NCBI RefSeq assembly: GCF_000526155.1
Contig: NZ_JAFN01000001.1
Coordinates: 2,505,014 to 2,569,013 of the forward strand
Source of the DNA: Deferrisoma camini S3R1
Lineage (GTDB): Bacteria; Desulfobacterota; Deferrisomatia; Deferrisomatales; Deferrisomataceae
DNA: 64,000 nucleotides
Reading direction: 5' to 3'
The position numbers were made by a program, and so were the translations under genes. This document shows positions 43,700 through 47,180 of the stretch, piece after piece; position 1 is the first letter of the stretch, and each line of letters starts with the position of its first letter. The notes beneath the pieces are model-generated. The model saw nothing but the letters and a program-made list of their open reading frames with translations, ran no database searches and was not told the origin of the DNA.

Positions 43700-44827
43700 T
43701 TACGCCGCCAGAGCCGAGGCGGTGCGCTCGGCAAGGGCCCGCCTTTTGCGGTACGCCTCGCGGCAGATCCGCATGTCCTCGAAAAACGCCTCCATCTCCT
43801 CCATGAGCATGGCCTGGGGGCCGTCGCACAGGGCCTTTTCCGGCCGGGGGTGGAAATCCACCAGCACCATGTTGGCCCCGGCGATCACCCCCTGGGCGGC
43901 GGCGTGCCAGATGTCGAGGATACGATCGGGAGCCGGCACCTTCTTGCCCACGGAATGGGAGGGGTCGATGCACACCGGAAGCCGGGTCTGGCGCTTCACC
44001 ACCGGGACCTGGGCGAAGTCCACCAGGTTCCGGTGGGGGTCGCCCAGGTTCGTTTTGACCCCCCGCAGGCAGAACACGATCCGGTGGTTTCCGTTGGTGG
44101 CCACGTACTCGCAAGCGTTCAGGCTCTCCTCCAGCGTGATGCCCATGCCCCGCTTGAACAGCACCGGAAACTCGTGCTGGCGGCCCACGTGCTTCAGCAG
44201 CTCGAAGTTCTGGGCGTTGCGGGTGCCGATCTGCACCATCACGCCCGTGGGATGCCCCGCCTCGGCCAGTGCGTCGTGGATCTCCTCCAGATGGGCCTCG
44301 TGGGTCACCTCCATGGCGATGACCCGGATGCCGTACCTGCCGGCCAGCTCGAACACGTAGGGCAGGCACGCCCTGCCATGCCCCTGGAAGTCGTAGGGGG
44401 AGGTCCGGGGCTTATAGGCCCCCATCCGGGTGGTGGTGATCCCAAGGCGCGCCAGGGCCTGCATCATGACCTCCACGTGCTCCCGGGTGTCCACGGCGCA
44501 AAGACCGGCGAACACGTGAAAGCTGTCCTGGGAGAAGGTCAACCCCTGGTACTCGAACCCCACCTCGGGGGCCTGGCCGTCATGGCGGCCGATGATCCGG
44601 TACTTGGAGCTCACCCGGATCACCTTCTGCACGAACGGGAGCTCCTCGAACGCCTCGGTGGGCACCTGACGGGTGGGACCGAACACATAGACCTCGTGGA
44701 GGTCCTGGAGCGCGCCCCGCACCCGGTGGAACCGGAGCTCCAGGTCGGGGTACCGGGCCGCCACCGCCCGCAGGGCGGCTCGCTCCGAAGGGCCGGGCTG
44801 GGTGTCGGGTTTGAGCACGACGATCAT
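43700..44827 (-). CDS. aroF: 3-deoxy-7-phosphoheptulonate synthase (DAHP synthase)
   Basis: The first enzyme of aromatic amino acid synthesis, joining PEP and erythrose-4-phosphate. The 375-residue protein has a ferredoxin-like N-terminal regulatory domain (MIVVLKPDT...VQKVIRVSSKY) as in the Thermotoga enzyme, then a TIM barrel with GAYKPRTSPYDFQG, QIGTRNAQNF, LFKRG and CIDPSHSVGKK. The metal-binding cysteine motif reads FAGLCAVD instead of the usual AGPCSVE but keeps the Cys. GGAGGAGG precedes the ATG. A leader peptide and terminator upstream indicate attenuation. Confidence 0.93.
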   Translation of the reverse strand: MIVVLKPDTQPGPSERAALRAVAARYPDLELRFHRVRGALQDLHEVYVFGPTRQVPTEAFEELPFVQKVIRVSSKYRIIGRHDGQAPEVGFEYQGLTFSQDSFHVFAGLCAVDTREHVEVMMQALARLGITTTRMGAYKPRTSPYDFQGHGRACLPYVFELAGRYGIRVIAMEVTHEAHLEEIHDALAEAGHPTGVMVQIGTRNAQNFELLKHVGRQHEFPVLFKRGMGITLEESLNACEYVATNGNHRIVFCLRGVKTNLGDPHRNLVDFAQVPVVKRQTRLPVCIDPSHSVGKKVPAPDRILDIWHAAAQGVIAGANMVLVDFHPRPEKALCDGPQAMLMEEMEAFFEDMRICREAYRKRRALAERTASALAA

Positions 44828-44847: not shown

Positions 44848-44880
44848 GGGGCCGTGGGCGGCTCGCCAACCCACGGCCCC
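44848..44880 (-). promoter_or_regulatory. Second hairpin in the aroF leader
   Basis: GGGGCCGTGGG and CCCACGGCCCC form an exact 11-bp stem with an 11-base loop, between the attenuator terminator and the aroF ribosome site. It could be a back-up terminator (weak T-run, TTTCGTC) or shield the ribosome site. Confidence 0.6.
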
Positions 44881-44927
44881 AAAAACGAAACGGCCACGGG
44901 CTGGCGGTTTGCCTGCCCGTGGCCGTT
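44881..44927 (-). terminator. Attenuator terminator of aroF
   Basis: On the minus strand AACGGCCACGGGC (44915-44927), a 13-base loop, GCCCGTGGCCGTT (44889-44901), then TCGTTTTT: a perfect 13-bp stem with a T-run, 54 bases before the aroF start. Its left arm and loop contain CGGGCAGGC (44911-44919), which pairs exactly with GCCTGCCCG (44979-44987) in the leader-peptide gene, giving the alternative antiterminator. Confidence 0.85.
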
Positions 44928-44962
44928 GGCTGTGCGGGATCTGAGTTCGTCGCGGACCGTCC

Positions 44963-45052
44963 CTACACATCCGCCGCGCGGGCAGGCTTCCGAAACCAGA
45001 AGCCCCCAAAATAAAAGCAATAGCCGGCGGTAAAGTAACGGACGGTCTGCAC
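44963..45052 (-). CDS. Aromatic leader peptide controlling aroF (attenuator)
   Basis: A 29-residue reading frame starting with GTG at 45052, with GGAGAGG at good distance, and ending in TAG. The peptide contains nine aromatic residues, three Tyr, five Phe and one Trp, clustered in RYF, GYCFYF and GFWF. A small hairpin GGCTTC...GAAGCC (44986-45005) covers the FWF codons and competes with the GCCTGCCCG antiterminator segment. Ribosome stalling at Tyr/Phe/Trp codons would favour antitermination and aroF expression. Too small for most gene finders. Confidence 0.82.
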   Translation of the reverse strand: MQTVRYFTAGYCFYFGGFWFRKPARAADV

Positions 45053-45086
45053 GGCGACCTCTCCAAACGAGTTATCTACCCTGATT

Positions 45087-45115
45087 CGTATACCCGAGAC
45101 TCTCGCTCCTGTCCA
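45087..45115 (-). promoter_or_regulatory. Promoter of the aroF leader
   Basis: On the minus strand TGGACA (45110-45115), exactly 17 bases, TATACG (45087-45092), placing the start near 45080, 28 bases before the leader-peptide GTG. The spacer contains the palindrome CGAGA-G-TCTCG, a possible operator. Confidence 0.65.
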
Positions 45116-46429: not shown

Positions 46430-46843
46430 TCACCCCGCATTCCGGTCGATGCGGCTCTCCGCCCACTCCACCGCTTCCCGCGCCAGGTCCACGGCTCGGC
46501 GCGCCGTGTCCCGGTCGTACACCCGCGCGGGGATCCCGGCCGGGAGCCCGTTGGGGTAGCGCGTGGGGATGTAGAACCCGTCGAGCACGCTCCAGCGCTT
46601 CACGGAATCCCGGATCTCCGGATACCGGTCGGCCAGTTCGGAGCCCAACCGTTCCACCGAGTGCCCCAGAACGATCTCGGCCCCATCCGCATACCGCACG
46701 GCCTTCAGGGCCTTTTCCGCAACCTGTTGCGCAAGGAAGCAGGCGAGGTGCCAACCTCCCTCCCGGGCCAGATGGTCCGCCCACTTGAGGTCCTCCTGGG
46801 CCTGCTCCAGCCAGCGACGGCCTTCCTCAATGCTGTCTCTCAT
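46430..46843 (-). CDS. HEPN-domain protein (putative toxin of a HEPN/MNT pair)
   Basis: The 137-residue helical protein has the HEPN pattern: [39 protein letters not shown], then LGHSVERLG and [12 protein letters not shown]. The catalytic R-X4-6-H ribonuclease motif is not clearly formed, so activity is uncertain. It overlaps the nucleotidyltransferase gene by 17 bases. Such pairs act as toxin-antitoxin (type VII) modules in several bacteria, the MNT partner modifying the HEPN protein. Confidence 0.82.
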
Positions 46844-47180
46844 ACAAAACCCTCCCTGTTTCGAGGGCGCTTCTCAAAAACGGTTCCCCTCGCATCCGCT
46901 CGAACTCCTCGGGAGTGTAGACCAGGAGGTCCGAATCCACCTCCAACCCCAACAGCGGCAGGAGTTTGGCTGCTCGCATGGGAAACGGCTCGTCGGTTCG
47001 CATGACCACGAGGAGGTCCAGATCGGTGAACAGATCCCGACGACCCCGGGCCGCGGACCCGATCAGAATCACCCGCTCCACCTCTGGAAGACGCCCGAGC
47101 CGCTCCGCGACCCGGCTCACGGCACGGTCCAGTCGCTCGGCATATCGCCGTCGTTCGGCATCCAAAGGGGTCGGCATCAT
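46827..47180 (-). CDS. MNT-family nucleotidyltransferase (putative antitoxin)
   Basis: The 117-residue protein has the minimal nucleotidyltransferase motif: [22 protein letters not shown] with GSxARG and the DxD metal pair. It probably adenylylates the HEPN partner encoded downstream. The pair is bracketed by a MITE-like element on one side and three palindromic repeats on the other, suggesting recent gain. Confidence 0.85.

Follow-up and report, generated by a model that had tools for sequence, protein, structure and literature searches.

Leader peptides rich in aromatic residues have been described before in front of aroF. In C. glutamicum the AroR leader (Phe-Tyr-Phe) controls aroF and is reported to respond to Phe, not to Tyr (PMC4046766; PMC11802643 citing Neshat 2014). 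The uORFC-13-1 motif, a solely computational prediction reported only from Acholeplasma and environmental sequences, is a predicted attenuator in which a uORF with Phe codon(s) and a terminator lie upstream of aroF (PMC8632094). The E. coli pheL-pheA, pheST and trpL leaders (described in PMC11802643) follow the same 1:2 / 2:3 / 3:4 logic with codons for the end product, in front of other genes; Phe_leader and Trp_leader are families of Rfam.

The window, a 64,000-nucleotide stretch of the Deferrisoma camini S3R1 genome, carries an arrangement of this kind upstream of a DAHP synthase gene. Its parts, given by window position in the direction of transcription, are as follows.

45087-45115, minus strand: candidate promoter by sequence, -35 TGGACA at 45115-45110, 17-nt spacer, -10 TATACG at 45092-45087
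45058-45064, minus strand: Shine-Dalgarno sequence GGAGAGG of the leader ORF, by sequence
44963-45052, minus strand: leader ORF, GTG at 45052 to TAG at 44963, 29 aa, MQTVRYFTAGYCFYFGGFWFRKPARAADV; by sequence and by homologous aromatic leaders in six relatives
45008-45016, minus strand: conserved core codons TTT TAT TTT, Phe13-Tyr14-Phe15; F-[Y/F]-F in 7/7 genomes, productive stall sites in the model
44996-44998, minus strand: Trp codon 19, the sole Trp of the leader
44980-45007, minus strand: hairpin 1:2 (anti-antiterminator), GGGGGCTTCTG / CGGAAGCC-TG-CCC, by folding
44979-44987, minus strand: strand 2, GCCTGCCCG, pairing with strand 3 in 7/7 genomes with compensatory changes
44911-44919, minus strand: strand 3, CGGGCAGGC, by complementarity to strand 2 and compensatory changes
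44881-44927, minus strand: intrinsic terminator 3:4, 13-bp stem and tail TTTCGTTTTT, by folding and covariation
44848-44880, minus strand: second strong hairpin, GGGGCCGTGGG...CCCACGGCCCC, between the terminator and the aroF Shine-Dalgarno sequence, by folding (-30 kcal/mol, z -4.7)
43700-44827, minus strand: aroF, DAHP synthase of 375 aa with ATG at 44827 (PF00793), the gene proposed to be regulated

The locus shares with AroR an aromatic leader and attenuator before a DAHP synthase, with an F-Y-F core in both, and with uORFC-13-1 the uORF with Phe codon(s) and the terminator before aroF. The likeness claimed is in each case functional only, and AroR differs from the window leader in coming from an actinobacterium and in its reported answer to Phe but not Tyr. 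In trpL, strand 2 is located after the leader stop codon, whereas here it lies inside the leader ORF. Because AroR and uORFC-13-1 are precedents before aroF, this attenuator adds to a kind that is already known, and leader control of a DAHP synthase is less unusual than was supposed.

Very probably, a ribosome-mediated transcription attenuator controls aroF and answers to Phe and Tyr charging. The promoter hexamers and the ribosome site were present as initially described; the presumed promoter, a weak match to consensus, was not called by a consensus scanner, and a -10-like hexamer (TATACA, TATATA) was found in the same place in most relatives' upstream regions. The 29-codon leader gene, probably translated, was recovered with its 3 Tyr, 5 Phe and 1 Trp codons (9 of 29), an enrichment kept in the relatives. 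The 5' arm of the terminator contains, at 44919-44911, the exact complement of strand 2 (44987-44979), in agreement with the 9-base segment that had been reported to pair with the terminator's left side. The 13-bp terminator with its T-run likewise stood: its arms (44927-44915 / 44901-44889, minus strand) fold at -33.9 kcal/mol (z -6.9) ahead of a T-rich tail, it lies between the leader ORF and aroF, and its stem shows covariation. The small hairpin that had been placed over the FWF codons was also present, but it is larger than described, with 11 bp (-16.9 kcal/mol, z -2.7); it includes three bases of strand 2 and is therefore a genuine 1:2 element. The local fold of the leader region as a whole was far more stable than that of shuffled sequences (z -4.6).

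According to the proposed mechanism, when charged tRNA-Phe and tRNA-Tyr are plentiful the ribosome would reach the leader stop codon and cover or pass strand 2, leaving strand 3 free for strand 4, so that the terminator would form and transcription would end before aroF. A ribosome stalled at Phe-Tyr-Phe (codons 13-15, perhaps others) would unfold 1:2 and leave strand 2 free; 2:3 would then form ahead of the synthesis of strand 4, pre-empting the terminator, and aroF would be transcribed. Where translation fails, 1:2 would form and transcription would terminate. To model this scheme, RNA ending with strand 3 was folded while a ribosome footprint was set on each codon in turn. The predicted antiterminator probability for the window was 0.00 without a ribosome or with one at the stop codon, and ~1.0 with a ribosome at F15 under every assumption; a stall at Y14 was productive in most settings, the stall predictions varying with the footprint and with whether upstream RNA may pair. 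For two relatives, L004 and L006, the model favoured antitermination also with no ribosome present, a predicted leak in the absence of translation.

Conservation was assessed in seven Deferrisomatales genomes, the window and six further aroF upstream regions. The leader, strands 2 and 3 and the terminator are kept in all seven, with compensatory changes, and the aromatic-rich leaders have in common the core F-[Y/F]-F-[G/W]-G-[F/Y]. The alignment of leader regions proposed in the initial annotation thus showed the aromatic-rich frame, the 2:3 pairing and the terminator in every genome, and loss of the frame or of the pairing, either of which it had held would count against it, was looked for and not seen. 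The sequences of strands 2 and 3 vary by species without losing complementarity: GCCTGCCCG/CGGGCAGGC in the window, GTCTGCCAG/CTGGCAGAC in L007 and L008, CGCTGCCCG/TGGGCAGCG in L006 and GTCTGCCCG/CGGGCGGAC in L005. Across the seven genomes 96.8% of the 2:3 cells were paired, with 7 double-sided compensatory cells; this covariation score was reached by none of 500 shuffles, and slid controls were at most 39% paired. The 1:2 hairpin is in register in five of the seven (the window and four relatives), L004 and L006 having only a possible shifted register. In L007 and L008 the linked positions 45007, 44980, 44918 and 44898 change from G/C/G/C to T/A/T/A, which keeps the 1:2, 2:3 and 3:4 pairings all intact; since a mutual-exclusion switch predicts these four linked changes and a plain terminator does not, they support the switch. 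Taken together, the conserved parts and the compensatory 2:3 changes support the attenuation logic first proposed from this DNA.

Beyond the order, a covariance model (R1) whose structure comprised 1:2 and 3:4 only, with 2:3 left out, matched 60 of 395 genomes of the window's phylum; in the window's own genome its remaining matches were weak or terminator-only. The 2:3 pairing, absent from the model, was 93.8% paired with 12 double-sided changes in 32 aligned matches, and 92.9% paired with 14 such changes in 51 matches; an automated 2:3 finder gave wrong partners in some distant leaders (such as L012, L020 and L030), which were left out of the evidence. A second model (R2), trained without the window's genus, recovered the window at 106.9 bits (E=1.5e-18) and matched 208 of the 395 genomes, an upper estimate, as only strong matches were inspected. 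Twenty R2 matches were examined, none of them in training and all at E <=3e-8. Each has a leader ORF in which a run of 12 codons includes 7 or more aromatics, and in 18 the next gene is a DAHP or ADH synthase, representatives of each kind of downstream gene having been checked with NCBIfam and the others assigned by resemblance. Besides DAHP synthases, the downstream genes include an archaeal-type ADH synthase in L203, L208, L209, L211, L213, L215 and L217, a class I DAHP synthase in L210 and a PLP aminotransferase in L216; in L218 a second aromatic leader intervenes. Most aroF orthologues outside the order (~57-70% identity) are without an aromatic leader, so the leader does not go with this aroF subfamily as such. 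Clostridia, Obscuribacterales and Victivallales also yielded DAHP synthase genes preceded by an aromatic leader.

The codon content of the leaders was compared with the downstream gene. Leaders before paaK (phenylacetate-CoA ligase) are almost purely Phe, with Tyr in 4 of 71 aromatic codons as against 91 of 278 before DAHP synthases, the Fisher and binomial tests on codon content ignoring relatedness and the paaK leaders coming from two families only. Together with an indolepyruvate-type oxidoreductase, PaaK can make phenylalanine from phenylacetate, which is a likely reason for the Phe-rich codon content. These leaders hint at a biosynthetic use of phenylacetate, with paaK possibly contributing to the phenylalanine supply of some of these bacteria.

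One possible explanation of the locus that would dispense with an attenuator is a constitutive terminator, or the 3' end of the GAPDH gene that lies upstream, combined with a chance aromatic ORF; there are 80 nt between the end of the GAPDH gene and the leader, and small ORFs do occur by chance. A control on 464 kb of the same genome (both strands, 3808 short ORFs) contradicts it: in three of the 3808, a run of 12 codons held 7 or more aromatics, and of these only the aroF leader combined this with a T-run-bearing stem of 10 bp or more and a 2:3 complementarity of 8 nt or longer. Moreover, the leader is kept in relatives whose directly upstream DNA differs, and the compensatory 2:3 changes would be left unexplained, so that we give this reading practically no credence. 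Another scenario is that a different RNA regulator (a T-box, a riboswitch or a protein-binding leader) operates here and the ORF is incidental. The attenuator does leave the second hairpin near the aroF Shine-Dalgarno sequence unexplained, but the window leader matched neither Phe_leader, Trp_leader, T-box nor any other Rfam family at the gathering threshold, nothing credible appeared in the window at a lax threshold, and the codon content of the leaders tracks the downstream enzyme; this scenario is accordingly very improbable.

A closer alternative keeps the same attenuator and lets it truly sense all three aromatics, as had been suggested at the outset, with the Trp codon as a working stall site. 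Exactly one Trp codon is found in the leader of every order member and one in 21 of 28 DAHP synthase leaders of the phylum sample, Trp density in leaders is 2.6% against an assumed background of 1.3%, and W19 was productive (0.5-1.0) when only RNA 3' of the ribosome was considered. Against this, its antiterminator probability was 0-0.4 when upstream RNA was free to pair, the position of the Trp is not conserved, and Trp makes up only 8% of aromatic codons in DAHP synthase leaders, several of which have none. A ribosome stalled at codon 19 may, in the model, already cover strand 2. Because F15 and Y14 are productive and W19 ranges from 0 to 1 by assumption, sensing of Phe and Tyr, which conservation and geometry also back, is the supported reading, and any sensing of Trp would hang on the footprint assumed. 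We consider sensing of all three possible but somewhat doubtful.

For the attenuator reading Phe and Tyr, the wider interest is that control of aromatic synthesis would be placed at ribosome stalling in a largely anaerobic phylum of environmental importance, and that the controlled enzymes are not homologous yet share an entry-step role. No report of this leader family in this phylum was found in the open-access literature searched. What appears to be new is the family itself, which spans the phylum and precedes several entry enzymes that are not homologous, archaeal-type ADH synthase among them, and the Phe-rich versions before paaK seem to belong to it. With about even confidence we propose an undescribed phylum-wide attenuator family in which one scaffold has leader codons tuned to the downstream enzyme, so that one leader can read several aromatics at a shared entry step: Phe and Tyr, sometimes Trp, before DAHP and archaeal-type ADH synthases, and nearly pure Phe before paaK. 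The leader model is a ready RNA family for annotation.

Several further observations were made. The Phe-rich leaders of this RNA family before paaK are L137, L138, L139, L142, L146, L182, L183 and L195, and in L135 and L136 the attenuator also precedes an archaeal-type ADH synthase, which opens the alternative aromatic route. In L197 (Candidatus Binatia) the R2 match is a Leu-codon-rich leader before leuA (2-isopropylmalate synthase), a similar scaffold for another amino acid. L091 and L096 (Obscuribacterales-type) have tandem aromatic leader ORFs before one DAHP synthase, and a hairpin follows each ORF, suggestive of two attenuators in series. The second hairpin of the window (44880-44848, minus strand) has a stability near that of the terminator and is kept in the sister species; a second terminator-like hairpin occupies the same place in the distant leaders L024, L025, L030 and L117. 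The genome has three more loci of the DAHP synthase family (L102-L104), and a search there for an aromatic leader found none. The aroF product (43700-44827, minus strand) matches NCBIfam DAHP synthase models below their cut-offs (255 vs 335; 216 vs 267.75) and is by these scores a divergent DAHP synthase. At 46430-47180 (minus strand) of the window, adjacent HEPN-domain and nucleotidyltransferase-domain genes are arranged like an MNT-HEPN toxin-antitoxin pair.
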